Source: a virus. Taken from it: 64,000 nt of DNA. The DNA lies in the IMG/VR virus record IMGVR_UViG_3300020057_000001, positions 1 to 64,000 of that record; one strand, given 5' to 3'. Position 1 is the stretch's first letter. Each line of letters starts with the position of its first letter. Below, in pieces: positions 6,338-63,494 of the stretch. Position numbers and translations under genes: made by a program. The notes under the pieces are model-generated. The model saw only the letters and a list, made by a program, of their open reading frames with translations. It was not told where the DNA came from and searched no databases.

Positions 6338-6364
6338 GTATCGCCAGCCGACACCAAAACTTTA
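6338..6364 (-). promoter_or_regulatory. Sigma-28 (FliA)-type promoter, leftward
   Basis: On the minus strand the sequence reads TAAAGTTT, an 11-base spacer, then GGCGATAC. The FliA consensus is TAAAGTTT-N11-GCCGATAA. All -35 positions match and the core CGATA of the -10 is intact. It faces the 56-residue gene at 6271 and the co-directional methyltransferase and left ankyrin array. Confidence 0.8.
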
Positions 6365-6442
6365 GCCTCATTGTAGCTTTTTTGCACAAAATAGGCTACT
6401 CTTTACTCAATTATAAAATTAACCCATCAGGGGGAAATCAAC

Positions 6443-9400
6443 GTGGCTGCACCAATTTCTGTTAAGTCCAAAGACCAACTTCTAGGCGACATGGTTCGTA
6501 CTATCAGCAATCAGACTGATATTACAGACTTTAAGGCAGGAGGCGGCCTTGTCTCTCTTATGGAAGCTATTGCCACTCGGCAGTTTCAGTTCCAAACAGA
6601 GATTCTAAAGATCATCGAAACTTCAGACGTAGACAACCTCGTCGGCTCACGGCTAGACGACCTTGCGGCTTCGATCCTCTTACCCAACAGTACGGGAGGT
6701 GTCGGGCGCAAACCCGCTCTTCCCGCATCAGGGTCGGTCACTATTGGGTCAAACTTTAAAAAAGTAGCAACTCGCTTCTACCAAGGTAAACCTCCCGCAT
6801 TTGCTGGCAGCACAATCTTGTACCTTCAAGACGCATCAGCATTCTCTAACCCCTCGTCTTCTCCTAAAGTCTACTTGGGACGCAACACGCTGGACAACTT
6901 TGAAGGCCCGATTCAATACACTGCTTTAACGAATAACGGGTCGTTCTGGACACTTACGCTCTCGTCTCCTTTGACGAAGAACCATTCGTACAGCGACGAG
7001 ATTGTTTTAGCCCAAGGTGGTAACCGAATCGTACCTGCCAGTACGTCTGTAATAATACAGGCAAAAGACGGACAAGCCCAAATTAATTTCACAACAACCA
7101 CGTCCGTGTCCTTGTTTGATGGCGAAGCCGAAACAAGTGCCTCCGTTGGTTGCGCCTTATCAGGAACGATCGGCAACGCCGCTACAAATGCTATTAATTC
7201 TTTTGTCACGGTTCCTTTCACGGGTGCCACTGTCGCGAACTCGACAGCGTTTGTCGACGGAAGAGACACAGAATCAGACGCAGACCTCCGCCAACGAATC
7301 AAAGACTACCCCGCTACCCTATCCCGTGGAACAGAAGCTTCTATACGCGCAGCCCTTGACGGCCTTGTTGACCCTGTTTCGAACAAAGCGATAACCTCGG
7401 CGTCCCTGATCCGCCCTACTACCTCTGGGGACCCTACCACTATTTATATCGATGATGGCTCGGGACTAGAGCCGACCTTTGGCTATCAGGACTACGAGTT
7501 GCTCTTAGCAAAAGCTTCTGGTCAAGAACAAAGCTTTCGTACAGCCCAAGTACCGGTTACGCCGGTGCTAGTTACAGGTAGTGTCACGGCACCCTTTGAC
7601 TTGAGTGCGGCTTCCACAATAACCATTCTTGTAGATGGCGTCACTATTGCCCTCCAGGTCAACACCGCCAATTACTCAGACATTCGTGCCGCCACTGCGT
7701 ATGAAGTTGTCCGTGACCTTAACACTCAAAGCGCTCTTTTAGCTTGGCGCACGGTGAACAGTGGCAAGCAAGTCACTGTATTCGATGCCAATAACGATGC
7801 CGAAGAGATCGAGGTCACCTCGGGTGTGCTTCAGCAAGCTTTGGGCCTTCCGACAATCACAACACGTAATATTTATCTTTACGTCAACGGTGTTTTAAAT
7901 TCCTTCAAAGGCAAGACAGCAGCCGTAACGACCGACACTTACCCGTGGGTTGGTATGACAAATCCTATTAACTCCTGCCAAGTGTTCATTGACCAAGTGA
8001 CGACCCCCGTAACTTTTTCAATCACCGACGCCGACTTCTCCCCTAACACAGTGGCGAATGCTACACTTACCCAGTGGGCTGCGGTCTTAAGAAAGAAAAT
8101 CCCTGGTGTCTCTATTGTAGTGGTAGAGAACAGACTGCTCATTGCCTCAAACCTTTTACGCTCACCTGATTCGCGTATCCAGGTGGCGGGCGGTCTCGTC
8201 GGGTCAGGCAAAATGTTTGCCGTAGCACAATCAAGCACCGGTGCCACTCGCGATTATGAGTTTAACCGCTTTACGGGCGACATCCGCTTTGTCGACAAGG
8301 TCCCTACAAGTAGCGTCGTTGAGATTGCTTCTACCAAGACACGAGCGTTTGTCTCTTCGCAAGTGGCTTCGACTGGTACGTTCGACTTGACCCCAAGTTC
8401 TCAATTCGGTGTGGGACAGATGTTGGTTGTCACTGACTCCGCAACTACCATTCGCGCCATGGGTATAGCCACTTCTTTAACCGCCACCAATCTTTCAAAC
8501 AATCTGTGTCGACTGACGGATGCTTCAGCCTCGCTTTTCGCTAACGTACAAGCGGGCGACTACATGTACTTCGTTAACAATGTTCTTGCTAACGCTACAC
8601 TAGCTCGCACATCCGACGGTCTCTATTTAGTACGCGCACAGACCGCAACGACAATAACCGTCGAAGCGTCTGACGCGCAGATTACGGCTTTCACCGTGGG
8701 TGGTATCGTTTACTCTACTGGTATGATTCAAGCTTTCTCTTGTGAAAAGGCTCCCGAAATTGCGGTGATTAAGTCCTCAGTTACGGGACAGACGTCTATT
8801 GCGCAGCTTGCAAAAGCCCTTAACGACCAAGCCATCGCCTTTGCAGTCGACACTGTCGGCGGACAACAGCTTCGGTTGCGGACAAGAGCTTTCAGCCCAA
8901 CGTCGACGGTATCCGTTGTAGGTTTAGTCGGACCCCTTGCGTCTGTCTTTACCCTAACAGTAGCTGAACCTATCACCCTCCAGAGCCATGTAGGGTTCTC
9001 GTCTTCACCTTTCTCGGACATGGGGCTTCCGGTTGTCACTAGCGTAATAACCGATAGGGCGACGGCTTTTTTAAAGATTACTCCTGACCTCACAGACGTG
9101 ACAACCAACACGGAACCCTTTGACGTCAACCCCAACCCCGTCATAGTGCAAGACGCTTTGGTTACGAGTTACCCCTTAGGCTTTGGAGAACTTTTCTTGG
9201 CAGGGAAAGCGGGCGGTCAGCGCTTTCGTACATACAATACTACGGGCACAGCACCTTTTACAGGTTTTGCTCGAGGCTCCGGTGGTGTACGCTTTCCTCA
9301 AACTCAGAACACTTCAGCAGGCGCAAACTACTACTCAAACTACGGCTTAAGACTTGAAGATCTCCCTATTACAAACGTAGACAAATTTGTGGCAACGTTT

Positions 9401-16362: not shown

Positions 16363-18948
16363 ATGGCGAATCTTTCAAGCGTAAACTGGATACCGAGTCA
16401 GCGAGTAGACGTCAGTGACATGCGGGCTATTGAGTCCTACGTCGCTAGTGACCTTCGCGCCCTTGTCAACATGATCACTGGCCCTAGCGAACCCTTCGTG
16501 GTTAGAGGCTTTGAGGTTATCGCAGCAGGGAACGCCCAGATCTCTCTTTCCCTCGCTAATGCTATGGTTTTTACGCCCGCAGGCGGTGTAGGGTCTTTCT
16601 ACCTAGGTACCGCAGCTCAAGCCGACCTCGTTGTCCCCTTGGTAAAAGGCGCAACTAACTATATCCAACTCGTATTCAAACGCGAATCTCAAACCTCAGT
16701 TACTCGCGGTATCTGGGATCAGACTTCTCCCACAGGCGACTCCCCAGCGGGAACCCAATTTACTGCGTCTGTGAAAATCCAAAACGTAATGGTCCCCGAC
16801 GAAGTCAGCCTCGTCTCACAAGCAGGTCGCATCGAAGGCGCGGCGTCAATTGCAATTGTAGACGTTGCTTCAGACGGAACAGTCTCAAACTTTAGAGACG
16901 ACCGCACTCTTTTGTTTCGTCAAGGTCGACCAACCGATCCCACGTACCAATTCCCCTGGGCAACCACAAGACAAGAGCCAGTTCAAAGTACAACACTCGC
17001 TTCAAACCTTGCCGACACCAACACAGCGTCTGTCTATTACGCACGAGACGCAGCTACTGGTAAAGTTGTCAACGACAAAGGGATTACTAACCTTAAAGAT
17101 TTCTTTGACGCCCTTATGACTTCGCTAGGCGAGATCAGAGGCTCGTCGGTATGGTACGCAGGTTCCGGTTCCTCTGTTTATTTGAACAACCTTAACTTGA
17201 ACACAGCGTACATGGATTCCGAAGCAGGGCACCACTGGGAGCCTAAAGCTAATGCGTTCATTCAATGGTCGAAGCCCGACGCAGCTACCGGTGTACCTGA
17301 CTTTAAACTCCGGGCTTCCGCCACTGACACCATCTCTTGGGGTCTCAACTACGGAAACGTAAGGTGGGAACTCGGCGGCGCTTACACTTCAGACGTGTCG
17401 ACTAACGGCTCACTAAGCCGCAGGTCTTTTAGCGGAACCGCTGCGGATAACTTATTCGTTTCAGGGGTAATTGCTAGCGGCTTAAACGTTTACCTTGCGC
17501 TTGAAAGAGACACCACTCCCGCAGGCGCATCAACCAATACTGTGACGTGGTCGCCATCTGTTCTCCCGTCGTTTTCAGCAGCCGCTCTTTGGGACGTAGC
17601 TTACACGGTCTCGGGTATCAAAGGCGACTTTACCGGTATCGCTATTGGTGACTGGGTAAAAAAGGCAACAGACGGGCAGTGGGCTTACTACAAAGTACGC
17701 CGCTTACTCGTTGATAACGGAACATCTTCGGGTGTGCAGGTAGGAGCCACGGGCTCTTCCGCAAGCCCTACGATTATCGCAGGCGACGATGGCGCAGTAG
17801 CAAACAACAACGTGGTTGCCCTAGAGCTTGACCGCTCCCTTGTCCCTGCTGGGACAGTAGTCCAACAGCTTTTTTGGTTTCGTTCTAAATATGCGAGCGG
17901 TGACGTCATTGTGGAAACACTTGCTCAACGCAACCAAGCCATTCCACCTTACCGGTCTACGTCGTACTACTGGCTAGGCTACGCCTACGACAACGCCGGT
18001 ACTTTCACAGGCCGCTACTTCTCCCTTCGCAATTACGGCACCATGTCCCCAGGTGAAGAAGTACAGTCGCTCGATGATTCGGACCAAGCGATTGACTACA
18101 CCGCAGGCAACTCCGAGTTTGCGATTGACTTCCCAAATAATATTGCTTATAGCGCCTCGACGCTTACCGGCACTTCATTTCTCGCAAACATTGCAAGACG
18201 CCTTACCAACAACCTTATCCCGAATGCTGGCGGCGCAGCCAACAAAGCCTCAATCAATTATCAAATTGTCGCAGGGGGATCTCTTGGTATCAGTGTAGGT
18301 CAAGAGCTGTGGGTAAACCTACAGGATTCTTACTCTGCTAGCGTAATCACGTTGATAGCCGGAGTCGTGACAGCCACAGCGAACACGTACGAAGTGCGTT
18401 CAGCCACAGCAGCACCCATTAGAAGCCTAACCAACCGCAACGTGTTTTGCTTAGGCCGTGTCACAACGGACGGTTATTTTCAGTTTATTGACGGCACGAA
18501 GGTCGCTTCTTCGGGCTTGTTCGACAGAAGCCCAAGGCTTATAAACAACGTGCTTGTAGGCGGTAACGCAGTTGTCCCCTTGACGGCTACAAACACCCTG
18601 ACGCTTGGATCGGCTACAGGGGTGACTAGGCTCTCGGGCGGCCAAATTATTAAAAGACGGTTCACGAACACACTTAGCACTCAACTCACCCTTGCGGACT
18701 ATCTCATATCCGTAGACACAAACACTATCGCAGCAGTGGGGATTACCACGATTCTCCCCAACACGTCGACATTGGTTGCGGGTCAGGTATTTTGTATAAA
18801 AGACTCTACTGGAAAAGCGGACCTATACCCAATCGACGTTGTCGGTTTTGCGGGCGAGCTTATCGATGGCGAGGCTTTTCAGTCCATTAATTCTAATTAT
18901 GAACAAATGACTGTCGTGTGGACTGGAAGTTATTACGAAATAGTTTAA
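16363..18948 (+). CDS. Baseplate or tail-fibre-network structural protein
   Basis: 861 residues; begins MANLSSVNWIPSQRVDVSDM, then beta-rich domains throughout with Gly/Ser/Thr-rich loops and a final small domain (IDVVGFAGELIDG, MTVVWTGSYYEIV) of the kind seen at the ends of phage fibre and baseplate proteins. A good SD (GCGGAGACACC) precedes the ATG. It closes the baseplate operon; its stop codon overlaps the -35 element of the promoter that drives the right ankyrin array. Exact family not identified. Confidence 0.75.
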   Translation: MANLSSVNWIPSQRVDVSDMRAIESYVASDLRALVNMITGPSEPFVVRGFEVIAAGNAQISLSLANAMVFTPAGGVGSFYLGTAAQADLVVPLVKGATNYIQLVFKRESQTSVTRGIWDQTSPTGDSPAGTQFTASVKIQNVMVPDEVSLVSQAGRIEGAASIAIVDVASDGTVSNFRDDRTLLFRQGRPTDPTYQFPWATTRQEPVQSTTLASNLADTNTASVYYARDAATGKVVNDKGITNLKDFFDALMTSLGEIRGSSVWYAGSGSSVYLNNLNLNTAYMDSEAGHHWEPKANAFIQWSKPDAATGVPDFKLRASATDTISWGLNYGNVRWELGGAYTSDVSTNGSLSRRSFSGTAADNLFVSGVIASGLNVYLALERDTTPAGASTNTVTWSPSVLPSFSAAALWDVAYTVSGIKGDFTGIAIGDWVKKATDGQWAYYKVRRLLVDNGTSSGVQVGATGSSASPTIIAGDDGAVANNNVVALELDRSLVPAGTVVQQLFWFRSKYASGDVIVETLAQRNQAIPPYRSTSYYWLGYAYDNAGTFTGRYFSLRNYGTMSPGEEVQSLDDSDQAIDYTAGNSEFAIDFPNNIAYSASTLTGTSFLANIARRLTNNLIPNAGGAANKASINYQIVAGGSLGISVGQELWVNLQDSYSASVITLIAGVVTATANTYEVRSATAAPIRSLTNRNVFCLGRVTTDGYFQFIDGTKVASSGLFDRSPRLINNVLVGGNAVVPLTATNTLTLGSATGVTRLSGGQIIKRRFTNTLSTQLTLADYLISVDTNTIAAVGITTILPNTSTLVAGQVFCIKDSTGKADLYPIDVVGFAGELIDGEAFQSINSNYEQMTVVWTGSYYEIV

Positions 18949-18972
18949 AGTCGTGTAGGGTTGTTCCGATAG
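18946..18972 (+). promoter_or_regulatory. Sigma-28 (FliA)-type promoter for the right ankyrin array
   Basis: Reads TAAAGTCG, an 11-base spacer, then TCCGATAG. The -35 starts at the stop codon of the upstream baseplate gene and the start codon of the first ankyrin gene is only about 16 bases past the -10, leaving room for an SD and little else. The match to FliA is weaker in the last two -35 bases but spacing and CGATA core hold. Confidence 0.7.
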
Positions 18973-18988
18973 TACATTTGAGGTGCGC

Positions 18989-19711
18989 ATGGATTATCAA
19001 TATGTATTTTTACTAGCCGCCAAAAATGGCGATTTAGGCACAGTAAAGCGATTGGTGGAAGCAGGTCTAGTTGACCCTAAAGATAGTGATGCTCTCTTGT
19101 TGCGCTTGGCTGCCAGTAACGGTCACTTAGAAGTAGTTAAGTTTTTACTCCCGCACTCCGACCCTAAAGCTAACGCTACTGAGGCTTTTCGCCGTGCTGC
19201 GGCTTACGGTCATTTAGAAGTAGTTAAGTTTTTGCTACCGCACTCCAACACTAAAGTTCAAAATTCTCAGGCTTTTCGCTTTGCTGCGGCTCACGGTCAT
19301 TTAGAAGTAGTTAAGTTTTTACTACCGTACTCTGACCCTAAAGCTAACTATTCTGAGGCTTTTCGCTTGGCTGCGGCTCACGGTCGTTTAGAAGTAGTAC
19401 AGTTTTTGCTACCCTACTCTGACCCTAAAGCTAACGCTTCTACGGCTTTGCGTTGGGCTGCTAAGAATGGTCGTTTAGAAGTAGTACAGTTTTTGCAACC
19501 ACACTCCGACCCTAAAGCTCAAAATTCTGAGGCTTTTCGTTGGGCGGCTTCGTACGGTTACCTAGGCGTAGTTAAGTTTTTACTACCGTACTCCGACCCT
19601 AAAGCTGACAATTCTCAGGCTTTTCGCTCGGCTGCTGCGAAGGGGCACTTAGAAATAGTTAAGTTTTTGCTACCCCATACCGACCCTGAAGTGGTAAGAC
19701 AATTTATCTGA
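18989..19711 (+). CDS. Ankyrin-repeat protein, right array member R1 (7 repeats)
   Basis: First gene of the rightward array, 240 residues with seven 29-residue repeats and the C-cap DPEVVRQFI. N-cap MDYQYVFLLAAKNGDLGTV. One repeat has GYLGVV in place of GHLEVV, and one loop is PHSNTKV instead of PHSDPKA. The ATG at 18989 lies just behind GAGGTGCGC and immediately downstream of the sigma-28-type promoter. It shares its final repeat and C-cap with the seven-repeat gene of the left array. Confidence 0.92.
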   Translation: MDYQYVFLLAAKNGDLGTVKRLVEAGLVDPKDSDALLLRLAASNGHLEVVKFLLPHSDPKANATEAFRRAAAYGHLEVVKFLLPHSNTKVQNSQAFRFAAAHGHLEVVKFLLPYSDPKANYSEAFRLAAAHGRLEVVQFLLPYSDPKANASTALRWAAKNGRLEVVQFLQPHSDPKAQNSEAFRWAASYGYLGVVKFLLPYSDPKADNSQAFRSAAAKGHLEIVKFLLPHTDPEVVRQFI

Positions 19712-19719
19712 GGTGAAAC

Positions 19720-20304
19720 ATGGAATACTTATTAGCGCTTGCTCTCGCTCCGATACTGTTCGCGGGTGGGTTTGCAGTCGTTATGGCGTGGCTGGGTAAG
19801 TTTGAAACGCCAGCGCGAGGAAAGGGAAGGCCCAAAAGCAGCCTGGGGGATTACCCAAACATATCTGTGCGCGCAGCTATGCGAGGTGCCTTAGATACGG
19901 TAAAGCGATTTGTGGGAACATATCGATTTGACCTAAGGTCCGATAACGGTTCCGCTTTTCGTATGGCTGCTGACAAAGGTCATTTAGAAATAGTTAAGTT
20001 TTTACTACCATACTCCGACCCTCCAGCCCTAGATCATGCTTTTCGCATGGCTGCCTGGACCGGTCATTTAGAAATAGTTAAGTTTTTACTACCACATTCC
20101 GACCCTGAAGCTCACTATTCTGAGGCTTTTTGTTGGGCTGCTGAGAATGGTCACTTAGAAATAGTTAAGCTTTTGCTACCGTACTCTGACCCTAAAGCTC
20201 AAGATTCTCAGGCTTTTCGCTTTGCTGCTGAAAATGGTCACTTAGAAGTAGTTAAGTTTTTACTACCGCACTCCGACCCTGAAGTGGTAAGAGAATTTAT
20301 CTGA
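19720..20304 (+). CDS. Membrane-anchored ankyrin-repeat protein, right array member R2 (4 repeats)
   Basis: The only array member with a different N-terminus: residues 2-25 (EYLLALALAPILFAGGFAVV then MAWLG) form a hydrophobic signal-anchor, followed by a basic linker (RGKGRPK), a cap remnant (MRGALDTVKRFVGTYRFD) and four ankyrin repeats ending DPEVVREFI. The repeats would face the cytoplasm if the basic linker follows the positive-inside rule. Bases 20024-20198 are about 97% identical to 21515-21689 in member R5, so this gene took part in conversion or duplication. It begins 8 bp after R1. Confidence 0.9.
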   Translation: MEYLLALALAPILFAGGFAVVMAWLGKFETPARGKGRPKSSLGDYPNISVRAAMRGALDTVKRFVGTYRFDLRSDNGSAFRMAADKGHLEIVKFLLPYSDPPALDHAFRMAAWTGHLEIVKFLLPHSDPEAHYSEAFCWAAENGHLEIVKLLLPYSDPKAQDSQAFRFAAENGHLEVVKFLLPHSDPEVVREFI

Positions 20305-31289: not shown

Positions 31290-31316
31290 TTCTCGGACAG
31301 ATCCAACCGGACTTTA
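31290..31316 (-). promoter_or_regulatory. Sigma-28-type promoter, leftward
   Basis: Minus strand reads TAAAGTCC, 11 bases, TCCGAGAA. One base of the CGATA core is changed (T to G), so it is weaker than others. It lies 30 bp ahead of the start at 31260, consistent with its use. Confidence 0.55.
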
Positions 31317-31394: not shown

Positions 31395-31691
31395 ATGACC
31401 GATTTCTTCGATTCCCTTAATAATGAACCGTCGCAAGAAGACCTACAGGCCGCTATCCCTCTAGCGCTGGCGCAACTAGTCAATGAAAACAACCTTGTAA
31501 AACAAGAACTCTTCCGTCAAGCGCAAGAGCTACAGCAGCTTAGAGTACACGCCGCCCTGTCACTCTTCCTCGTAGAAAAAACAATTGGCGCAGAAAGGTA
31601 CGCGGAGATCGTCGTGCTCTTTAATGAAGCCGTGAGCGTCAAGCTTAACACTCAAGCAGAAACCCTTGCGGACAGTCAGGAAACCGTGTGA
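31395..31691 (+). CDS. Hypothetical helical protein
   Basis: 98 residues, mostly helical with acidic N-terminus (MTDFFDSLNNEPSQEDLQAA) and a coiled-coil-like centre (QELFRQAQELQQLRVHA). ATG at 31395 follows AAAGGATACGAT. The next gene starts inside its stop region (GTGTGA overlap), so it is the first of a four-gene coupled set leading to the head-morphogenesis protein. Confidence 0.7.
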   Translation: MTDFFDSLNNEPSQEDLQAAIPLALAQLVNENNLVKQELFRQAQELQQLRVHAALSLFLVEKTIGAERYAEIVVLFNEAVSVKLNTQAETLADSQETV

Positions 31692-32428
31692 AAAGCCGCT
31701 TTCAAGAAGTCTGCCCGCGCAGGCTGAAAAACCTACCTACCGACGGACCCTGCCCCCTTGCACTCCGCTCTATTGAGGCATGGCAAAACGGTGAGAGAGA
31801 CGAAACAAAACTCGCATGTCCTTTCTTTACAATGTCAAGCCAGTACTCTAATTGTTTCTTCTCTCAACTCGACGATCAAAACGGGCATGCCATCGAATCT
31901 GACAGAGAGATCGCTAAGACTCTAGGGCTCACTGACAAAGAAGTGAAAACTGCGACTGCTGAAGCGATAACGAAGATTAAAGCCGCAGCAGACGAAGGCA
32001 ATGAAGACGTAAAGCTCTTGCTTGAGTCTTTAGCAGATGTGAACGCACTGCCCGCAGAAGCCGACATCTACGCTGGTGAAAACTGGTTGTTCGAGGGTGT
32101 CGAGCATCTGATCGACGAGCTTACGTACCGTGGACAAATAGAGACGTTACTCAATCAAGGGCGCTTGAAGGCACCTGTCGCTGAAGCCCTGCTGAAGAGG
32201 GGTCCTGGTAGACCCTCGGCGGCTATTCAACCTCCAAAGGGTACGAGCGGAACCGGTGCTGTACACCACAGTGGAAAAATTCAACTGTTTGCGTTGTCTA
32301 GTAACTGGAACAAAGTAGTAAAAAAATTCCAAGAAGGCCCTACGCCGATACGTATGGCTACCAACTCGTTAGTATCGCGGGAACGTAAGCTCAGTAAGAA
32401 GGACATGGAAGATGAAGAAAAATCTTAA
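31688..32428 (+). CDS. Sigma-region-4-like helix-turn-helix protein with Cys motif
   Basis: 246 residues, GTG start overlapping the previous stop. Residues about 71-98 (DREIAKTLGLTDKEVKTATA and on to KIKAAA) resemble the helix-turn-helix of sigma-70 region 4. Ahead of it, cysteines at 22, 44 and 56 in PCPL, ACPFF and NCFF could bind a metal. A GPGRPS stretch near residue 172 looks like an AT-hook-type basic turn. The role could be transcriptional control or DNA binding in head assembly; the context is head genes. Function not established. Confidence 0.6.
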   Translation: MKSRFQEVCPRRLKNLPTDGPCPLALRSIEAWQNGERDETKLACPFFTMSSQYSNCFFSQLDDQNGHAIESDREIAKTLGLTDKEVKTATAEAITKIKAAADEGNEDVKLLLESLADVNALPAEADIYAGENWLFEGVEHLIDELTYRGQIETLLNQGRLKAPVAEALLKRGPGRPSAAIQPPKGTSGTGAVHHSGKIQLFALSSNWNKVVKKFQEGPTPIRMATNSLVSRERKLSKKDMEDEEKS

Positions 32429-34276: not shown

Positions 34277-34303
34277 GTATCGTCAGGGTCTGTAAAAACT
34301 TTA
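34277..34303 (-). promoter_or_regulatory. Sigma-28-type promoter, leftward
   Basis: Minus strand: TAAAGTTT, an 11-base spacer, GACGATAC. The -35 is a perfect FliA match and the CGATA core is intact. It sits just ahead of the membrane-protein gene ending at 34249. Confidence 0.8.
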
Positions 34304-37570: not shown

Positions 37571-37607
37571 ACTTGAATGTCTTCGGTAACAGTGCGGTAG
37601 ACTTTAG
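37571..37607. repeat. Direct repeat copy A: relict helicase 3' end
   Basis: Identical over 37 bp to 38433-38469, with lower-level similarity (5 differences in about 18 bp) continuing to about 37553. On the minus strand copy A encodes KVYRTVTEDIQVL followed by DV and a stop, against EV and a stop in the intact helicase. The two copies flank the lipoprotein protease gene, which ends 5 bp from this copy. Confidence 0.9.
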
Positions 37608-38419: not shown

Positions 38420-39856
38420 TCAAACTTCTAGCACTTGAATGTCTTCGGTAACAGTGCGGTAGACTTTAGCTCTTTGTTGAGAGTACCCTAAGAATTTATC
38501 TCGATACCCGTAACCTTTCAAGGTGACGTCAAAGAAATATACGGCGTCCTTACCAGGACTCAGGCGAAGCCCTCGTCCTAGCACTTGTCTTGTCAAAGCT
38601 TCGCCGGAAGTATTCACAACTGATATCATGGCGTCTATGGAGGGTACGTCAATCCCAGTTCCCAACAATGCACTATTAGAGATCAGCGTGCCTACCTTCC
38701 CGTCTTTAAACATTTTGAAAGGGTGCCGAAACCCGCTATGCGCAACCATATGCTTTGTGCCGTAGCGCTCATTGTAAGCAGTGGCGAATTTCTCCCCTGG
38801 CTCTCTTGTCTTAAAGAGCACAAGAGTTCTCAGCCCTCTGTCTTCTAGAGCCTTCAGGGTGTCACAAAGATAATTTATGGCCGCAGACGAGCTGGCAAGA
38901 ATGCCGTAAGCTTTTTGCTGGTTCATGGCATCGGGCAGGGTAGATTTTTGAGAGGAGAGATTAATCATAAAAATCCGAGGGGGTGTGAGAAACTTATGCT
39001 CAAGTCCCCAAGCGGAAGTCTTTTGATAAACTACAGGGCCGCAGAGGGCATGCACGCCTACGACTAGGCTGTCAGCTCTCACAGGAGTGGCTGTGAGCCC
39101 GTAGGCATGAGAAGCGCCCGAGCCGAGAATGGCCGCCGAGTAGGAATCCGATCCCACCCCATGGCATTCATCTGAAACCATGACATTGAACATATCGCAA
39201 TAGCCTTTCGCCGAAGCGATAGTGGTTACTGCGCAAGGAGCACCTTCTTTAAACTTTGCTCCGCCGCCTATGCCACACGTTCCCGGGATAACTTCCTTTA
39301 ATGCTTTAACAGTTTGTTCCACAAGGTCAATTGTAGGCACAATCACCAAAGGACGCTTCCCACTCTTAATAGCGGAGTGGCAAAGCATAGCGATGATCAG
39401 GGACTTACCCCCGCCCGTGAACACATCGAGCATTGCTCTCTTGAAAAGGAGCAGCTCTTTTACAGCTTCGACTTGGTAGGCTCTAGGCTGTTTGGCATAG
39501 GTGACGTCGAGCGGGTGGTATATGATTTCATTGTTCAGGTGTCCAGACACCTCCTCACAGAGCCACCACAGCCCTGGAGGACAGGACAGCGATCCGTCTG
39601 CGTTTTCGGCGTAGTAGCGAACGAGCAAGTTTTTCCCTAAGCGCCTTATTTCCCTCTCTACCCAACGCGCTTGCACGTCGCTGGTTGACGGCTTGTTTTT
39701 AAGGGCCTTGATTTGGTATTCCACGGAAGAATCTACGGCGGTGATAAAGCGTTTGAAAGGGTCGAGGTCAGCACCTGTGACAATGAGTTCCTGCCCGTCG
39801 GGTCTTAGGGTTCCTTTAGTAAACGGAAAAGCCGTAAATGATTCAATTTTTTTCAC
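38420..39856 (-). CDS. Superfamily 2 DNA/RNA helicase (UvsW/XPB-like)
   Basis: 478 residues. Motif Q-like region PRAYQVEAVKELL, Walker A FTGGGKS (146-152), motif Ia VIVPTIDLVEQ, Walker B DECH (229-232), motif III GLTATP, and C-terminal motifs IV-VI including VLFKTREPGEKFA, GTGIDVPSIDA and RQVLGRGLRLS. Likely roles are branch migration and recombination-linked replication as for T4 UvsW. GTG start at 39856 behind AAGGCTGATAAC. The last 15 codons are duplicated downstream of the protease gene. It is read from the sigma-28-type promoter at 40045-40071 through a small membrane-protein gene. Confidence 0.9.
   Translation of the reverse strand: MKKIESFTAFPFTKGTLRPDGQELIVTGADLDPFKRFITAVDSSVEYQIKALKNKPSTSDVQARWVEREIRRLGKNLLVRYYAENADGSLSCPPGLWWLCEEVSGHLNNEIIYHPLDVTYAKQPRAYQVEAVKELLLFKRAMLDVFTGGGKSLIIAMLCHSAIKSGKRPLVIVPTIDLVEQTVKALKEVIPGTCGIGGGAKFKEGAPCAVTTIASAKGYCDMFNVMVSDECHGVGSDSYSAAILGSGASHAYGLTATPVRADSLVVGVHALCGPVVYQKTSAWGLEHKFLTPPRIFMINLSSQKSTLPDAMNQQKAYGILASSSAAINYLCDTLKALEDRGLRTLVLFKTREPGEKFATAYNERYGTKHMVAHSGFRHPFKMFKDGKVGTLISNSALLGTGIDVPSIDAMISVVNTSGEALTRQVLGRGLRLSPGKDAVYFFDVTLKGYGYRDKFLGYSQQRAKVYRTVTEDIQVLEV
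38433..38469. repeat. Direct repeat copy B: 3' end of the intact helicase gene
   Basis: Forms the last coding bases of the helicase on the minus strand. Identical to 37571-37607. The 862-bp period between the copies is occupied almost entirely by the protease gene and its SD. Confidence 0.9.
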
Positions 39857-40044: not shown

Positions 40045-40071
40045 TTATCGCCACGCGTTCTTCAAACTTTA
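40045..40071 (-). promoter_or_regulatory. Sigma-28 (FliA)-type promoter of the helicase operon
   Basis: Minus strand: TAAAGTTT, an 11-base spacer, GGCGATAA. Fifteen of sixteen consensus bases match, the best site in the window. It drives the leftward operon from 39994 to about 34364. Confidence 0.88.
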
Positions 40072-40096: not shown

Positions 40097-40126
40097 TTGA
40101 CTAAAGCAATAGTTGGAAGGTAAAAT
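40097..40126 (+). promoter_or_regulatory. Sigma-70-like promoter for the capsid-protease operon
   Basis: TTGACT, 18-base spacer, TAAAAT, about 30 bp upstream of the start at 40156. It is divergent from the sigma-28-type helicase promoter only 26 bp away. Confidence 0.6.
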
Positions 40127-42503: not shown

Positions 42504-42530
42504 TAAAGTTTTGTGGCAATTGTGCGATAA
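42504..42530 (+). promoter_or_regulatory. Sigma-28-type promoter, rightward
   Basis: TAAAGTTT, 11-base spacer, TGCGATAA. Perfect -35 and CGATAA in the -10. About 36 bp ahead of the ATG at 42567 and after a terminator, so it starts a new transcript. Confidence 0.85.
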
Positions 42531-43114: not shown

Positions 43115-43216
43115 CCCAGTCCAACCCTCCCATGGTGTTTCTCGGCATCCCCTACCGCGAATTGAGTAAAATAGCTTGGTGTATACTCACCAATCACCTC
43201 AAAGGGGTTCTCCACC

Positions 43217-45163: not shown

Positions 45164-45190
45164 TAAAGTCTGAAAGCAAAACGGCGATGA
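45164..45190 (+). promoter_or_regulatory. Sigma-28-type promoter, rightward
   Basis: TAAAGTCT, 11-base spacer, GGCGATGA. Located between the terminator and the endonuclease-like gene; the SD begins a few bases after the expected transcription start. Confidence 0.72.
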
Positions 45191-47161: not shown

Positions 47162-47188
47162 TCAAGTTTTAAAAGAAACTTGCGATAC
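47162..47188 (+). promoter_or_regulatory. Sigma-28-type promoter of the lysis region
   Basis: TCAAGTTT, 11-base spacer, TGCGATAC, 22 bp ahead of the ATG at 47211. It overlaps the divergent promoter region of the small membrane-protein gene on the minus strand. Confidence 0.78.
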
Positions 47189-47905: not shown

Positions 47906-47937
47906 TAATTTGTAAAATGAATTTTTAGGGGGACTGC

Positions 47938-48916: not shown

Positions 48917-48943
48917 TAAAGTCTGACCAACTCTTGGCGATAA
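48917..48943 (+). promoter_or_regulatory. Sigma-28-type promoter, rightward
   Basis: TAAAGTCT, 11-base spacer, GGCGATAA: one of the best matches in the window. Located between the lysozyme gene and 48966. Confidence 0.85.
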
Positions 48944-52799: not shown

Positions 52800-52859
52800 G
52801 CGTTTTCATTTAGAAAAGCCTGTGTTAGACTGCAAGTAAAATCTAACAAGAGGTGATGA

Positions 52860-53189
52860 ATGGCAACAGGCGCGTTAGGCAAACCAGTAATTCAAGTAGT
52901 AAGCGGAATCTTTCGGTCACAGCCGCAAGAATACACGCTTACACACAACGCTACATCTGACTGGGGGAGTATAGCAGCAGGTGACCTCTATCAAATTATC
53001 GTATTAGCTTCTGCTCACGGCCTCGGTACAAGCCCAGTTGTAGCCTGTTTTCTCGATACAGGCGCCGGTTTTGTACTAATTATCCCTGACAGCATTACTG
53101 TCGCTGCCAACGGTGACGTCGCAGTTAATGTAAGTCAAGCAGGTATTGACGGGCGCTACAGCGGCCGCATTCAAATCGCTCGGTCATAA
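52860..53189 (+). CDS. Small tail-associated protein
   Basis: 109 residues, beta-rich, ATG behind GAGGTGATGA. It begins MATGALGKPVIQVVSGIFRS and contains ITVAANGDVAVNV, a pattern of small fibre or decoration proteins. It opens the receptor-binding cluster; the next gene starts 9 bp after its stop. Confidence 0.65.
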   Translation: MATGALGKPVIQVVSGIFRSQPQEYTLTHNATSDWGSIAAGDLYQIIVLASAHGLGTSPVVACFLDTGAGFVLIIPDSITVAANGDVAVNVSQAGIDGRYSGRIQIARS

Positions 53190-53198
53190 GGAGATGTT

Positions 53199-53930
53199 AT
53201 GGCTCGAGTAAAGGGCGATTTAAGCTCTAGGGTAGTGAGCACGAATTCGTTGGCTGTGGGTGTCACCACAAGCGTAACGTCTTCTTCCGGTCAAGTTGTG
53301 CTCAATAATTTTGCAACAGGCGTGCAAACAGCCACGGGCGTCGCGTCCAACTTTTCATTTAAGTTTGCAGCAGCTACACTATTTCCGACGGTGGGCTACC
53401 AGTTCACTATATATAATAAAAGTTCTCAATCTATCTCGGTACTTAACAGCGCAAATACAAGTCTAGTAATTATTCCAAGCGGTTACTCCGTGATTGTGAC
53501 GCTTCGCGACAATACGACGTCTAGCGGAATCTTCGATATTGCTGCTTTTTCTAACACATCCTTCTCCGACACGTCAGCAGAGCAAACGGCTCTTTTTGGG
53601 CGCAGCGGTCTTGTTTCGGTCGACGCGTGGTTGCTTCTGAGTGGGGTGCCGTCAAATTCGGTCGGCTACCGTACTTCTGTGACCACCGCGCGAGTGGTCC
53701 GGTTGTTTACCAACACGGGCGCAGCGAGCACATACACACTGGGCCTTTATTCCCACGACGGTGCCTTGGTAAACTCCTCACTCATAGCGACGTTAGCAGT
53801 CGTAAGTGCCCTTGGCGCAGAAGTCTCTATCTCAGCGAGTGTGGCAAACGGTAAACAACTCGCCGTAAAATTGGAAAGTGGCGCAGTCACGGACGTTCTT
53901 GCGGGCGTAGTTCTGAAAGGACTTGTTTAA
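53199..53930 (+). CDS. Putative tail fibre/adhesin component
   Basis: 243 residues, beta-rich and Ser/Thr/Val-rich throughout, no signal peptide. SD AAGGAGATGTT. The N-terminal half reads like a small beta-sandwich (FKFAAATLFPTVGYQFTIYN). It overlaps the 925-residue fibre gene by 8 bp, which argues for joint assembly. Confidence 0.65.
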   Translation: MARVKGDLSSRVVSTNSLAVGVTTSVTSSSGQVVLNNFATGVQTATGVASNFSFKFAAATLFPTVGYQFTIYNKSSQSISVLNSANTSLVIIPSGYSVIVTLRDNTTSSGIFDIAAFSNTSFSDTSAEQTALFGRSGLVSVDAWLLLSGVPSNSVGYRTSVTTARVVRLFTNTGAASTYTLGLYSHDGALVNSSLIATLAVVSALGAEVSISASVANGKQLAVKLESGAVTDVLAGVVLKGLV

Positions 53931-57364: not shown

Positions 57365-57805
57365 ATGCAAAACGGTGTTGTTTTTCGTAGAAGTAGAAAA
57401 CTAGGGTCGAGATTAATTCGCTGGGGTACCCAAGAAGCTTGGAGCCACTGTGGGGTTATCATAGACAATGAAGCGTATCATTCAGATAGTAGAGGCTGTC
57501 ATGTGTCTACCGTGGAAGAGTTCTGTCTAGGCTCTGAAACGTTTTTCCTTGCCGTCGCCATCACAAAAGAACAAAAAGATAGAGCTATAAAAGCAATAGG
57601 TTATCAATATGATTGGGCAGCTATCGTCTGGTTTGCGATCGTCTTGTTACTGAAAAGAATCGCAATTATCCTACCGACGACTACAGTCAACTCAAAGTGG
57701 CTCGTGTGCTCTGAGTACGCTTCGTACATCTTTTGGGGTAAGGGTCAAACCGTAACTCCTGGCGAGTTTTTAAACCGCGTCCTTGCTGAACAAATCGTAA
57801 AATAG
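57365..57805 (+). CDS. Permuted NlpC/P60-type (YiiX-like) cysteine hydrolase
   Basis: 146 residues. The circularly permuted papain-like signature is present: His28 in WSHCGVII early, and Cys115 in WLVCSEYAS late, with YDWAAI between them. A hydrophobic stretch at about 85-103 (IVWFAIVLLLKRIAIIL) could be a membrane contact. Such enzymes cleave amide or ester bonds in peptidoglycan or lipids; in a fibre cluster it may serve envelope entry. The start ATG follows the previous stop with no gap and the SD is poor. Confidence 0.75.
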   Translation: MQNGVVFRRSRKLGSRLIRWGTQEAWSHCGVIIDNEAYHSDSRGCHVSTVEEFCLGSETFFLAVAITKEQKDRAIKAIGYQYDWAAIVWFAIVLLLKRIAIILPTTTVNSKWLVCSEYASYIFWGKGQTVTPGEFLNRVLAEQIVK

Positions 57806-57865: not shown

Positions 57866-60229
57866 ATGGCGTTCTTTACTAGAGGTAGCGTCTCCATCCA
57901 ACGCGACCTCGCAATTGGTCGTAATTTGACGATAGTCAATCCGGGCTACGTCCAGTTCAACGACGCAGCTTCAAACTTCATACGTCTTCTTGGTCCAAGC
58001 ACCGTTGTCTCCTCTTACACTATCACTTTGCCTGCCACTGCTCCAGGCACCAATCAAACTTTACAGTTTGACGGGACAAACTATATCTGGTCTTCCGCTG
58101 GGTCGGGTACAGTTACATCTGTAGCCCTCACGGCTCCCGTAGAATTTAGCGTGTCGGGATCGCCTATAACAGGCGCGGGCACACTAGCAATAACCAAGAC
58201 GACACAACCAGCCAACTTTGTTTGGGCGGGACCCGCAACAGGTGGACCGGCGGTGTCTGCGTTTCGTGCGCTTGTTTCAGGAGACATCCCTGTTCTGTCT
58301 TACGTCAGTTCAATCACAGCGGGTACTGGACTTTCGGGCGGAGTAATTACAAGCTCGGGTACTATCAATATAGCCACTACGGGTGTGGCAGCAGCGGCCT
58401 ACGGGTCAGCTTCCTCTGTAGCCACTTTTACAGTGAACACCCAAGGGCAACTCACAACAGCAGCAACCACAGCCATTCAAATTGGTCAGTCGCAAGTTAC
58501 AAGCCTTGTCTCAGACTTAACAGCAAAAGCTGCCACCACCCTTCTGCTAAACACGGGTACTGGGCTTACAGGTGGCGGGGACCTTTCGGCTAACCGCACT
58601 TTCTCCATAGCCAACACGTCCGTAATAGCGGGCTCCTACGGGTCTGCGACTCAATCACCGACGTTTACAGTGAACGCGCAAGGGCAACTAACGATTGCGG
58701 GCAACACGACAATTGCACCTGCTTTCTCTTCGCTCACAAGTACTCCCACTACCCTTGCGGGCTACGGGGTAACCGACGCTATCCAAAACGTCCTGGGTAC
58801 TCCAAGTATCTCTTCTAACGCAATTGCGAGCCGTCCCGTTTTTGGGACGGCGGGTCGTCTTTTTGTTTCGACCGACACAAAGCTGTTATTTCGCGACACG
58901 GGATCAGCATGGGAAGCCATTGCGGGCTCTGTTACGTCGATCGCTACGGGGACCGGACTTACCGGTGGAACGATTACGGGGACAGGGACTATCGCCCTAG
59001 CTGATACTGCGGTAGTAGCTGCCGCTTATGGGTCGGCTTCTGCGGTCGGTACTTTTACAGTAGACGCACAAGGTCGTTTAACAACAGCAGCAACCACAGC
59101 CATTCAAATCGGTCAGTCGCAAGTTACAAGCCTTGTCTCAGACTTAGCAGCAAAAGCTGCCACAGCAACAACAATCACAGCGGGTACTGGGCTTACAGGT
59201 GGCGGGGACCTTTCGGCTAACCGCACTTTCTCCATAACCAACACGGCAGTGACCCTTGGAGCCTACGGGTCTGCTACTCAAACACCTACGTTTACAGTCA
59301 ACGCGCAAGGGCAACTTACAGCCGCTGCAAATGTGCTCATCGCTCCTCTTTTTTCCTCAGTGGCATCGAAACCAACTACCCTTGCGGGCTACGGGATCAC
59401 TGACGGTATTCAAAACGTCCTAGGTACTCCGAGTATCAGCTCAGACCTTATTGCAAACCGCCCTACTTTTGGAACAGCAGGGAGGCTGTTTGTCGGAACG
59501 GACACGGCACTCATTTATAGAGACACGGGCGCTGCGTGGACTGTTCTAAGCCCTTCGTCAGGTGGAACAGTTACATCTGTGGCTTTAAGTCTACCTGCAA
59601 TTTTTACAGTCAGTGGATCGCCCGTCACAACCACTGGCACACTGACAGGGACACTAGCGACACAAACGGCAAACATCATATTTGCGGGGCCTTCAACTGG
59701 CGGAGCTGCTGTTCCGACTTTTCGCTCGCTCGTTTCAGCGGATATCCCAACCTTAGACTTTGCGAAAATAACATCAGGTACGGTACCAGTAGGGCAGGGC
59801 GGGACAGGAATAACCACCACGCCGTCAAACGGGCAGATCCCGATAGGAGACGGAACCACTTACTCGGCGGCGGCTTTAACGGCGGGTATCGGGGTCGCTG
59901 TTACCAACGGTGCCGGTAGCATTACTTTAGCTGCCACAGGAGCTATCCCTGCCACAGTTTCGACAAGTACCTCGTTAACCCTAACCGCAGCTAACTGCGT
60001 CGTCATTCTCACGGCAACTACCGCGAGGTCGGTCACTCTTCCTACGGCGCCCGTAAACGGGTCTCAGATTATGCTTAAAGACGGAGCAGGTACTGCGGCT
60101 ACTGCAAACATTTCGGTTGTAGCTGGTGGCGCGGACACCTTAGAAGCCCTCGGCACGCCGATAGACGCAGATGGAGCTGCGGTGTGCTACGTTTATTTAA
60201 CAAGTACGACAAGGTGGTATGTAATCTAA
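57866..60229 (+). CDS. Tail fibre protein with duplicated internal module
   Basis: 787 residues, Gly/Thr/Ala-rich. It has two copies of a roughly 205-residue module (first about 150-355, second about 356-565), each with GTGLTGGGDLSANRTFSI, TPTFTVNAQGQLT and IQNVLGTPSISS; DNA copies at 58454-58536 and 59081-59163 differ at only 2 of 83 positions. GTVTSVAL...SGSP blocks flank them. The C-terminus (SLTLTAANCVVILTATTARS then LPTAPVNGSQIMLKDGAG) is a common fibre tip domain. It ends the rightward virion gene block. Confidence 0.85.
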   Translation: MAFFTRGSVSIQRDLAIGRNLTIVNPGYVQFNDAASNFIRLLGPSTVVSSYTITLPATAPGTNQTLQFDGTNYIWSSAGSGTVTSVALTAPVEFSVSGSPITGAGTLAITKTTQPANFVWAGPATGGPAVSAFRALVSGDIPVLSYVSSITAGTGLSGGVITSSGTINIATTGVAAAAYGSASSVATFTVNTQGQLTTAATTAIQIGQSQVTSLVSDLTAKAATTLLLNTGTGLTGGGDLSANRTFSIANTSVIAGSYGSATQSPTFTVNAQGQLTIAGNTTIAPAFSSLTSTPTTLAGYGVTDAIQNVLGTPSISSNAIASRPVFGTAGRLFVSTDTKLLFRDTGSAWEAIAGSVTSIATGTGLTGGTITGTGTIALADTAVVAAAYGSASAVGTFTVDAQGRLTTAATTAIQIGQSQVTSLVSDLAAKAATATTITAGTGLTGGGDLSANRTFSITNTAVTLGAYGSATQTPTFTVNAQGQLTAAANVLIAPLFSSVASKPTTLAGYGITDGIQNVLGTPSISSDLIANRPTFGTAGRLFVGTDTALIYRDTGAAWTVLSPSSGGTVTSVALSLPAIFTVSGSPVTTTGTLTGTLATQTANIIFAGPSTGGAAVPTFRSLVSADIPTLDFAKITSGTVPVGQGGTGITTTPSNGQIPIGDGTTYSAAALTAGIGVAVTNGAGSITLAATGAIPATVSTSTSLTLTAANCVVILTATTARSVTLPTAPVNGSQIMLKDGAGTAATANISVVAGGADTLEALGTPIDADGAAVCYVYLTSTTRWYVI
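58454..58536 (+). repeat. Intragenic fibre repeat, copy 1 (copy 2 at 59081-59163)
   Basis: 81 of 83 bases identical to 59081-59163, the same strand and frame, within a tandemly duplicated module of about 625 bp in the fibre gene. Confidence 0.85.
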
Positions 60230-60441: not shown

Positions 60442-60471
60442 TTTACAATTCACTGACGCGTGCGGTAAAAT
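60442..60471 (+). promoter_or_regulatory. Possible sigma-70-like promoter
   Basis: TTTACA, 18-base spacer, TAAAAT, about 30 bp upstream of the ATG at 60502. Moderate match. Confidence 0.45.
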
Positions 60472-60501: not shown

Positions 60502-60801
60502 ATGCCAATTACTTCAGATACACAACAAAGACTCGAAATCGCTCTTGCTAGCTCTACAGCCGCGGCTGACCTTCTCGCCTTAGCAAGTGCTGGTTCAGTT
60601 ATTGCCCAGACTCCCCCTGCGGCAGCACCTACGTTTACCCCCGCATCTGCTCTCACAGGTGTTGACGGTACAGGAAGCAACGCAGCTCCTTTGGCTGGAA
60701 CTAACACACGCCTCGGTGGTCATGACACCCAAATCGTAGCTTTGACCTCTTTGGTCAACAGCTTGCGGACTAAGTTGATTGACGCTGGAATTCTCGTTTA
60801 A
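60502..60801 (+). CDS. Small virion-like protein
   Basis: 99 residues, Ala/Thr/Pro-rich (TPPAAAPTFTPASALTGVDG), ending with a helix (VNSLRTKLIDAGIL). SD AGGAGACTATA. Only plus-strand gene among leftward neighbours; its own promoter is likely. Composition resembles short fibre or whisker proteins; family not known. Confidence 0.65.
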   Translation: MPITSDTQQRLEIALASSTAAADLLALASAGSVIAQTPPAAAPTFTPASALTGVDGTGSNAAPLAGTNTRLGGHDTQIVALTSLVNSLRTKLIDAGILV

Positions 60802-61140
60802 TCACTTGATCCTGTAGCTTCGCAAAACATTTTTATTATTTTTAGCGCGCGCGAGCTTCATGTGCTCTTGCGCTTCTTTGTTTTTTGCTATTGTGCCTTC
60901 GAGCGTGCTGGGTTGGTTGGCTTTGAGATGTCTTAGAGCTTGCTCAAAGCTCGCACATTCGACTACATCGTCAGCGCCCTGGTCAAACTGGTCATACGAA
61001 CCCCAGCGTTTAGTCGACCGGTCGTACACATCTACGTTGTGTTGACCGTCTTCTCGGTACACCTTTGCATTGTCGGCATAGTAAGTGTAAGCGCCATGGT
61101 CGGCGGCTTCTTTATTAAAGATATTTATCACGTCGGTCAT
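60802..61140 (-). CDS. Hypothetical protein with MTDVINI N-terminus
   Basis: 112 residues from ATG 61140 (SD GGAAAGAAT). Begins MTDVINIFNKEAADHGAYTY, acidic middle (YDQFDQGADDVVECASFEQA), basic C-terminal helix (KLARAKNNKNVLRSYRIK). Not recognised. Its stop abuts the end of the convergent gene at 60801. Confidence 0.6.
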   Translation of the reverse strand: MTDVINIFNKEAADHGAYTYYADNAKVYREDGQHNVDVYDRSTKRWGSYDQFDQGADDVVECASFEQALRHLKANQPSTLEGTIAKNKEAQEHMKLARAKNNKNVLRSYRIK

Positions 61141-61228
61141 TATTCTTTCCAATCAAAAGCGAACCACAAGAAAAATAAAATCCCAAAAAGCAAATAAAAG
61201 GTCAAATGTTCCACTGCGCGCTTCTTTC

Positions 61229-61465
61229 TTAGTACTCGGAGGGTTCGTGCCAGACTTTAGTTAGTTCTTCCGAGAACCGCCCGCTGGTAGCGTACTCGGG
61301 GTCTTGCAGTGTAATGTCGGGCGAGATGGTGCAGCCTAGCGCCCTCGCTTGATCAAGCGCATGGTTGACAGCAGAAGGCGCATAAGACATGCGACCGTCT
61401 GCGTACCTACGAGCCCAAAAACCCAACTCTTCAACTAAACGTCTTAGTGCGTCTTCATGTGTCAT
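61229..61465 (-). CDS. Hypothetical phage accessory protein
   Basis: 78 residues; helical and charged, starting MTHEDALRRLVEELGFWARR. It overlaps the upstream gene by 11 bp. No known domain seen. Region 61141-61228 upstream of the neighbouring gene holds no further frame. Confidence 0.6.
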   Translation of the reverse strand: MTHEDALRRLVEELGFWARRYADGRMSYAPSAVNHALDQARALGCTISPDITLQDPEYATSGRFSEELTKVWHEPSEY

Positions 61466-61803: not shown

Positions 61804-62088
61804 CTATGGGAGGTTGGCGGCTTTTAAATCCCGCCTTGCCTTGGCAATACGCTCTTTTAGCACTTTACGGGTTTCGTCAGATGGGTCCTCGTTTAGCCAA
61901 CCTTCATTCTGTTCTTGAAAGCGCTTTAGCTCAGCTCGCTCTGTTTTGGTCAAAGCCATTCTCGAAGGTGCTTCTTGTGCTATTGCGAGAGCGCTCACAC
62001 GAGAAGGTTTTTTTACCTTCTTAGGCTTCTCTACTTCTTCTATTATCCCAGTTGCTCTATAAGTACCTAAACTAATTATCTTTGTCAT
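61804..62088 (-). CDS. Small basic protein with MTKIISL N-terminus
   Basis: 94 residues, ATG at 62088 behind AGGAGATTGC and about 35 bp from a sigma-28-type promoter. Begins MTKIISLGTYRATGIIEEVE, followed by a Lys-rich stretch (KPKKVKKPSRVSALA) and a charged helical C-terminus. Shares its first residues with three other genes in the window. Function unknown. Confidence 0.62.
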   Translation of the reverse strand: MTKIISLGTYRATGIIEEVEKPKKVKKPSRVSALAIAQEAPSRMALTKTERAELKRFQEQNEGWLNEDPSDETRKVLKERIAKARRDLKAANLP

Positions 62089-62121
62089 GCAATCTCCTGC
62101 TTGTTTCAAACTCTACCTATG

Positions 62122-62148
62122 GTTTCGGACGTGTCCGTTCAGACTTTA
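62122..62148 (-). promoter_or_regulatory. Sigma-28-type promoter, leftward
   Basis: Minus strand: TAAAGTCT, 11-base spacer, TCCGAAAC. The -10 has one change in the CGATA core. It lies between 62163 and 62088, facing the gene at 61804-62088. Confidence 0.55.
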
Positions 62149-63118: not shown

Positions 63119-63433
63119 TTAACAATATTCCGTGGAATCGTCTTCGTCCGTAGGGGTGGGTGCAAGAGGTTCAAAGAATTTTGCTGGGTTTGCCGTGCCG
63201 TGTACCTGTTTTAAGTTGGTGACGTCTAAGTTGATACCAAGCGGCACGCGGTCGCCTTTCATATTGCAGCACGCAATTCCCGTCACGTGTGCGCCCGAAG
63301 AAACCGATGTAGTTTTAAAAATTTTAAAGACTAAACGGCTACGTCCCATTTCATGAGTGGCGTAGAACACCTGGGTAGTTTTAGGGTTTTGGAGCTGTAT
63401 GCGGGCGTGTGTGAAACATTCTGTCAAGTTCAT
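63119..63433 (-). CDS. Hypothetical protein, first gene of a leftward operon
   Basis: 104 residues, beta-rich in the middle with adjacent cysteines (GIACCNMKGDRV) and an acidic tail (PTDEDDSTEYC). SD AGGAGATTTTT, and a sigma-28-type promoter about 36 bp upstream. Function unknown. Confidence 0.65.
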   Translation of the reverse strand: MNLTECFTHARIQLQNPKTTQVFYATHEMGRSRLVFKIFKTTSVSSGAHVTGIACCNMKGDRVPLGINLDVTNLKQVHGTANPAKFFEPLAPTPTDEDDSTEYC

Positions 63434-63468
63434 AAAAATCTCCTACGTGCGAACTAAGTCTACATTAG

Positions 63469-63494
63469 TTATCGGCAGGAATTTTCAAACTTGA
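63469..63494 (-). promoter_or_regulatory. Sigma-28-type promoter, leftward (10-base spacer)
   Basis: Minus strand: TCAAGTTT, 10-base spacer, GCCGATAA. The -10 is a perfect FliA consensus; the spacer is one base shorter than in the others. It faces the operon starting at 63433. Confidence 0.72.

Follow-up and report, generated by a model that had tools for sequence, protein, structure and literature searches.

The first 64,000 bases (the window) of the 160,071-base IMG/VR record IMGVR_UViG_3300020057_000001 come from an uncultivated, contractile-tailed phage of about 160 kb, distantly related to Myxococcus phage Mx1, and a family of promoter-like sites of the FliA (sigma-28, flagellar) type occurs across this phage more often than by chance. 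Most phages either rely on the housekeeping sigma factor of the host or supply a factor themselves, and the textbook FliA site is TAAAGTTT-N11-GCCGATAA. As judged from sequence, the best explanation of the family, and a probable one, is that host RNA polymerase together with host FliA reads these sites for a part of the non-virion genes. In the following, the remaining 96 kb of the record are used as held-out test sequence, and open reading frames (ORFs) were called mechanically throughout.

All 11 window sites listed in an earlier note on this DNA are present with the sequences given there, separated by the 11-base spacer described (10 bases at 63469) and with real single-base variation of the core at 31290, 45164 and 62122. 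Three further sites, at 37580, 38442 and 61233, all on the minus strand, were found in the window (table 1). The weak candidate at 23125, also put forward in that note, has no proper -35 element and lies outside the 70 best matrix-scored sites.

Enrichment of the motif

With the fixed consensus and at least 13 of 16 matches, seven sites are found in the window and ten in the held-out 96 kb, against 0.8 and 1.25, respectively, in shuffles, and 13 alternative spacers (range 5-18) return only the background (window 0-2, held-out part 0-3). The control that had been suggested, a matrix built from the 11 sites and compared with shuffled sequence, yields, at a threshold of 16, nine matches in the held-out part against 0.3; the corresponding count of 14 against 0.55 inside the window is circular, the training sites being included. 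An unbiased search for trinucleotide pairs in 91 upstream regions ranks AGT-N15-CGA first (17 vs 2.0) and AAG-N16-CGA second (19 vs 2.95), and the top upstream 7-mers are CTAAAGT (15 vs 1.2) and GTAAAAT (14 vs 1.5), the latter belonging to a second class discussed below. FliA matches of at least 12/16 occur in 15 of 90 upstream regions, against 0.4.

The strict pattern is found ten times in the 160 kb record and never with the reversed control. In a survey of bacteria, whose 733 rows represent 728 distinct genomes of about 0.4-8.9 Mb, the number per genome ranges from 0 to 10 and exceeds 10 in none, with a match present in 19/32, 244/290, 160/297 and 56/114 genomes of the four sets. A twin record of 147,886 bases, with an identical portal, carries the same ten strict sites in a circularly permuted order.

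Position of the sites relative to genes

The placement shortly before start codons and in the right orientation, as had been claimed, holds for 11 of 11 window sites, the start codon lying 19-69 nucleotides (nt) after the CGA; at ten of them the ATG is accompanied by a Shine-Dalgarno-like (SD) sequence 19-53 nt past the CGA. At 6338 an AGGGG and the ATG at 6271, 69 nt away, are found, and the leader folds no better than its shuffles (z 0.36). In the held-out part, seven of the nine matrix matches (84217, 145395, 139962, 138198, 91985, 71164 and 97921) stand before an SD-backed start codon.

The genes behind the FliA-type sites include those for a DNA ligase, an AAA ATPase, a transglycosylase-like protein and two homing endonucleases, together with the ankyrin cluster and many small genes without an assigned function; downstream of the site at 40045, a helicase (38420-39856) lies beyond a short ORF. 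The two homing endonuclease genes, 45204-46934 and record 138245-139771, are related and each has its own predicted FliA-type promoter, so that gene and promoter look as if moving together. A 52-nt block is present in two copies (94%), at 37556-37607 and 38418-38469, each of which precedes one of two adjacent genes and holds a FliA-like site.

Flanks of the core and the -10 variant

The extended phage motif reads roughly A-rich-N3-C-TMAAGTYT-N11-KSCGATAM-C-N5-TAG, intergenic sites tending to have the A-rich block upstream. The flanks were compared at 19 phage sites (the core-bearing 6338, 38445, 91988 and 145484, the short-spacer 63469 and deep-genic matches being excluded) and at 100 bacterial FliA-type sites in three groups, hand-picked among the matches listed and mostly having the 11-base spacer and CCGATA; by this selection, their share of CCGATA is uninformative. 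A C directly before the -35 TAAAGT is seen in 16 of 19 phage sites and in 31/60, 13/20 and 17/20 of the bacterial ones, while a TAG 8-11 nt past the CGA is found in 11 of 19 phage sites. A flank model derived from the phage beats within-sequence shuffles in all three bacterial groups (mean z 0.85, 1.11 and 0.93). Thus, the earlier reading of the core as FliA-type stands, and it is joined by flank features, common to bacterial FliA-type sites, on which that reading had not drawn.

The second class, GTAAAAT

The record contains the heptamer GTAAAAT 22 times, always on the plus strand, which holds two thirds of the coding length. Sixteen of the 22 copies lie outside ORFs of 100 or more amino acids (aa), one of them, at 71192, being separated from the following ORF by 172 nt; inspection shows that four others (53865, 68314, 84376 and 86512) stand just before start codons in spite of overlapping an ORF, and that two (109116 and 122203) do not precede a start codon. 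Among the genes behind it are those for the major head protein, the sheath, decoration and virion proteins; virion genes with no GTAAAAT in front include those for the baseplate at 6443 and the portal at 28797. The enrichment in upstream regions is 14 vs 0.7 in this phage and at most 6 vs 2.4 in seven relatives.

The capsid genes at 40156 and 42085 had been assigned sigma-70-like sites. The gene at 40156 does have another kind of site, which is this second phage-wide motif and apparently not an ordinary sigma-70 promoter, and 42085 is without it. The -35 hexamers 15-19 nt before TAAAAT at 20 sites are weakly TTGACA-like at most, differing from it by 2.8 bases on average, against 3.14 in shuffles, 3.6% of which are as low. 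Of 21 regions loosely matching FliA, a single one, that of 40156, also carries GTAAAAT, and on visual inspection its FliA match does not seem genuine. GTAAAAT is probably a late class read by another route; that the FliA-type class would be early and GTAAAAT late is suggested by gene content.

Relatives and other phage lineages

Of the relatives found, G007 (80.7 kb) is the closest, with a sheath of 41% identity and collinear genes. It contains five sites of at least 14/16 against 0.05 expected, two of them perfect, and five matches of at least 12/16 upstream of genes against 0.8; CCGATA is the -10 in six of its ten distinct sites listed. One promoter-gene pair may be conserved between the two phages: in this phage (G000) the site 97921(-) precedes 97176-97898, and in G007 the site 63132(+) precedes a 70-aa ORF followed by the orthologue, 63373-64053. 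The phage flank model does not hold for the four 11-spacer sites of G007 (z 0.47, p 0.43; TAG in 0/4). A small tandem ORF family rich in W, D, Q and V (DQVWDQ repeats) was also observed in G007 (L102, 10014-13793), with a FliA-type site at 13843(-).

Among 44 further relatives the strict pattern is present in three, G007, G048 and G050, and it was found in none of the six of an earlier set. Promoters matched to a host factor would be expected to follow a lineage, and these do. G010 was considered as a user of such sites and rejected (9 vs 3.2 at 13/16 or better, yet 1 vs 1.2 upstream of genes), as was G050, whose two strict sites come with no excess (1 vs 2.65). G048 has 42 vs 24.9 matches at 12 or more and 5 vs 2.55 at 13 or more, with CTAAAG and GATAT enriched; the FliA dyad is absent from its nine best dyads, and it is not claimed as a user. 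Upstream regions of G010 and G050 are strongly enriched in k-mers of their own, TTGTGGT/TGTGGTA and CAATCTT/ATCTTTA, respectively.

A search of IMG/VR with the extended motif returned 52 stretches, and several contigs besides the twin carry more than one. G780 (IMGVR_UViG_3300037245_004243) has eight strict sites in 129.5 kb and none in the control; the sheath and a RecA-like protein encoded by it have matches among phages of the T4 superfamily. At 9 of 11 unique sites of these other contigs, TTGACA/TTGACT-N17-TAGAAT/TAGTAT is interleaved with the FliA core (mean 9.73/12 vs 7.11 shuffled), and the predicted composite FliA and sigma-70 promoters are near-identical across G780 and other contigs; for one composite 43-mer, the phage-isolate collection gave no full-length match (best 56% covered). 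Such composite promoters in contigs of which at least one is T4-like suggest more than one origin. ORFs of 17 extended-motif loci, compared with this phage, gave only three matches, all weak (22-32% identity), and the single-site contigs L330 and L351 have genes of up to 44% identity with G050, and L343 one gene of 52% with G010; exchange of genes or promoters between lineages is possible on such sequence likeness.

What reads the FliA-type sites

The host FliA holoenzyme would bind the sites and start transcription at or near the TAG, driving the non-structural units listed above; the host motility sigma factor would probably be a main route for part of the non-virion genes, and GTAAAAT before several virion genes would mark a separate, probably late class. 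As no phage sigma factor or RNA polymerase appeared in the family searches, which covered part of the proteins, host FliA is the simplest recogniser. We infer from sequence which factor reads the sites, where transcription would begin, when the genes would be expressed and that the phage would depend on a motile host.

Several results weigh against this reading. The strict phage sites have GCGATA in seven cases out of ten and the usual consensus CCGATA in three, which may point to a recogniser slightly different from standard FliA. Of the nine held-out matrix matches, two (114269 and 136382) lie inside genes, as does a match at 9579 in the baseplate gene (matrix score 17.6); the loose pattern has 29 matches in the whole record, ten of them within ORFs of 100 or more aa, and five of these in-ORF matches (48500, 83624, 114269, 136385 and 158043) lack an SD-backed start within the next 130 nt. 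Since good-scoring matches occur inside genes, single matches are not proof. Upstream regions also show a weak excess of sigma-70 sites (21 vs 9.6 of 90 at three or fewer mismatches), and FliA need therefore not be the sole route. The ribonucleotide reductase gene 115065-116930 is preceded by GTAAAAT, which makes the split of the classes by function incomplete. Six distant relatives (G010, G050, G013, G048, G049 and Mx1) have no clear upstream excess (0-4 vs 0.3-1.5), and Bdellovibrio phage phi1422 has little (2 vs 0.75 at 13 or more matches, in 38 of 45 kb). Finally, the Pfam searches in which neither a sigma factor nor an RNA polymerase appeared covered 113 of the 149 ORFs of at least 70 aa outside the ankyrin family.

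That a phage factor might be the recogniser had been raised from the outset. A divergent phage-encoded protein of FliA-like specificity, lying beyond profile detection, is an unlikely reader of the sites; the GCGATA preference and the many phage proteins to which the searches assigned no family would suit it. Sequence searches gave no Sigma70_r2 match in the whole record, even at E 1, and one sub-threshold Sigma70_r4 match (E 0.036); PHROGs, applied to parts of the record (for one part, the best 25 of 52 families), likewise showed neither a sigma factor nor an RNA polymerase. The gene with the Sigma70_r4-like stretch, 31688-32428, belongs to the head module and was rejected as the recogniser, for G049 and G013 have homologues of it and not the promoters. 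Its product, conserved in these two relatives, is Cys-rich and has a helix-turn-helix resembling sigma region 4. The agreement of the flanks with bacterial FliA-type sites and the presence of the extended motif in other phage lineages also argue against a phage factor.

Another host factor of the sigma-28/group 3 type, non-flagellar and thus without a link to motility, is quite improbable as the reader. Its case is that some bacteria have several group 3 factors with near-identical sites; against it, the motif is the textbook FliA site itself. A near-identical site is, moreover, labelled FliA-like in the passages seen of PMC3627812.

The possibility that overlapping sigma-70 promoters cause the conservation, with the FliA likeness secondary, draws on the composite sites of other contigs (the same core over TTGACW-N17-TAGAAT/TAGTAT at 9/11) and is very improbable here, a hidden sigma-70 element having been sought in 16 sites of this phage and rejected (6.88 vs 6.65+-0.2 shuffled). 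Chance or a low-complexity artefact, to which single and sometimes high-scoring in-gene matches might point, is refuted for the family by the held-out, shuffle, spacer, reversed-pattern and unbiased tests.

On reading by host FliA, about twenty phage genes may be under FliA-like switches, and infection may depend on a motile host. If true, a phage would have entrusted an entire class of its promoters to the motility sigma factor, making infection dependent on the life stage of the host; the promoter class would then predict the host state attacked and give a testable case.

Leads to the host

The TAG element is present in 14 of 60 sites from the phylum of an Oligoflexia metagenome-assembled genome (MAG), Bdellovibrionota in the NCBI taxonomy, against 1 of 40 elsewhere (Fisher p 0.003), after a first count of 9/40 vs 1/20 and enlargement of the sample to 60, 20 and 20; the flanks of the Bdellovibrionota sites have a G+C content of 0.32 against 0.44-0.46 elsewhere, a confounder that favours TAG by chance. 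Bdellovibrionota as the host is thus a weak lead. In Bdellovibrio bacteriovorus, according to the passages seen of PMC3627812, a FliA-like TTAAG-N16-CCGATA marks 92 of 140 attack-phase promoters, and, by analogy, a Bdellovibrio-like host would make a FliA strategy pay. A bolder and rather doubtful picture is that FliA use evolved at least twice among large phages with contractile tails (alone in G000 and G007, doubled with sigma-70 in T4-like contigs) and that the host is a predator of the Bdellovibrio kind, the first phage genes firing only in its swimming attack-phase form and the virion genes awaiting GTAAAAT.

A Rhodanobacteraceae MAG, which gave the best ankyrin match (60%), was discarded as the host, its genome having no strict FliA-type site. 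The sheath profile A5, run against genome contigs in search of a prophage, gave 23 stretches, among which no relative was confirmed. The passages seen of a Bdellovibrio phage paper (PMC3391216) do not mention 'promoter', and a study of the Campylobacter carrier state (PMC6282759) was set aside as a precedent, sigma-28 in the passages seen concerning host genes and not phage promoters.

Features of the window and of the record

Table 1. Predicted promoters and related features of the window (positions 1-64000).
Feature	Position	Strand	Matrix score	Remarks
FliA-type promoter, predicted	6338..6364	-	24.2	56-aa ORF, start 6271
FliA-type promoter, predicted	18946..18972	+	19.0	ankyrin cluster 18983-23115
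FliA-type promoter, predicted	31290..31316	-	18.5	weak -10 CCGAGAA; SD and ATG at 32 nt
FliA-type promoter, predicted	34277..34303	-	22.0	69-aa ORF 34040-34249
Additional FliA-like site	37580..37606	-	14.8	before 36844-37545; SD and ATG at 37 nt
Additional FliA-like site	38442..38468	-	14.8	before 37613-38386; in duplicated 52-nt block
FliA-type promoter, predicted	40045..40071	-	24.6	best match; 37-aa ORF next
FliA-type promoter, predicted	42504..42530	+	24.3	42567-42851
FliA-type promoter, predicted	45164..45190	+	21.8	homing endonuclease 45204-46934 (phrog_3339, E 1e-93)
FliA-type promoter, predicted	47162..47188	+	22.0	47211-47435
FliA-type promoter, predicted	48917..48943	+	24.5	48966-49529
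Weaker FliA-like site	61233..61259	-	16.7	before 60802-61152; ATG at 95 nt, without SD
FliA-type promoter, predicted	62122..62148	-	20.5	61804-62109
FliA-type promoter, predicted	63469..63494	-	19.8	10-base spacer; 63119-63433
GTAAAAT	40120..40126	+		before 40156-40947
GTAAAAT	43166..43172	+		before head-decoration-like gene 43217-45079
GTAAAAT	47912..47918	+		before 47938-48195
GTAAAAT	52836..52842	+		before 52860-53189
GTAAAAT	53865..53871	+		before virion structural gene 53923-56700; inside end of preceding ORF
GTAAAAT	57797..57803	+		before decoration/tail-fibre-like gene 57866-60229
GTAAAAT	60465..60471	+		before 60502-60801
Head-module gene, sub-threshold Sigma70_r4-like stretch	31688..32428	+		E 0.036, 11.7 bits

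Family matches in the record include baseplate wedge, portal, terminase, homing endonuclease, helicase, major head protein and virion proteins. A search of the window returned no tRNA gene, and no RNA family was found there or in four of six further pieces of the record examined; the stretch 40000-60300 of the window has no near DNA relative in the phage collection, and the phage DNA polymerase, used as a query, matched no phage.

Seventeen ankyrin-repeat ORFs, in blocks on opposite strands, are found at 1-3947, 18983-23115 and record 159016-159715; they consist of 29-residue repeats, and nearly all end with VRQFI or a near-variant. A tandem series of very long ORFs (833-1578 aa) occupies record 118976-134772 (L004); four or more of these ORFs are paralogues, and four copies have the leader GTAAAATATTTTGATATCGAGGA in common. 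The Cpn60 chaperonin gene at record 103519-106209 (L003) contains a weak internal LAGLIDADG-like stretch, possibly an intein.

Comparison with known systems

The sites resemble FliA class 3 flagellar promoters in the TAAAGTTT-N11-GCCGATAA core and in the C before the -35, and differ from them in a -10 that is often GGCGATA or TGCGATA and in the downstream TAG. Phage-borne sigma-like factors include T4 gp55 and SPO1 gp28. Phages 7-11 and phiEco32 are, in the passages seen of PMC8948821, further examples of phages bringing their own sigma-like factor. Such phages have distinct promoter classes, and GTAAAAT resembles a -10-only late promoter; here, however, no such factor was detected, and the first class copies the site of a host alternative sigma factor.

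The attack-phase promoters of Bdellovibrio are similar in that a FliA-type site serves a global programme beyond flagella, but they belong to cellular genes and, in the passages seen, have N16 between TTAAG and CCGATA, one base more than in the phage (PMC3627812). G780 has multiple strict FliA-type sites as well; they are composite with sigma-70, and in the pieces compared it has no close protein kin of this phage. Mx1 (OR576727.2) is related in terminase (28.9% identity) and sheath (31.1%), but the strict FliA-type pattern is absent from its 169.6 kb.

Among the open-licence PubMed Central (PMC) matches listed, none describes, by its title or the start of its abstract, a phage with FliA promoters; a printed case may nevertheless exist. 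A phage tied to flagellar gene control is known, in the passages seen of PMC13418256, from phage-encoded, RNA-guided TldR, which regulates flagellin. Those phages act on the flagellin expression of the host, whereas here predicted promoters of the host flagellar type would drive the genes of the phage itself.

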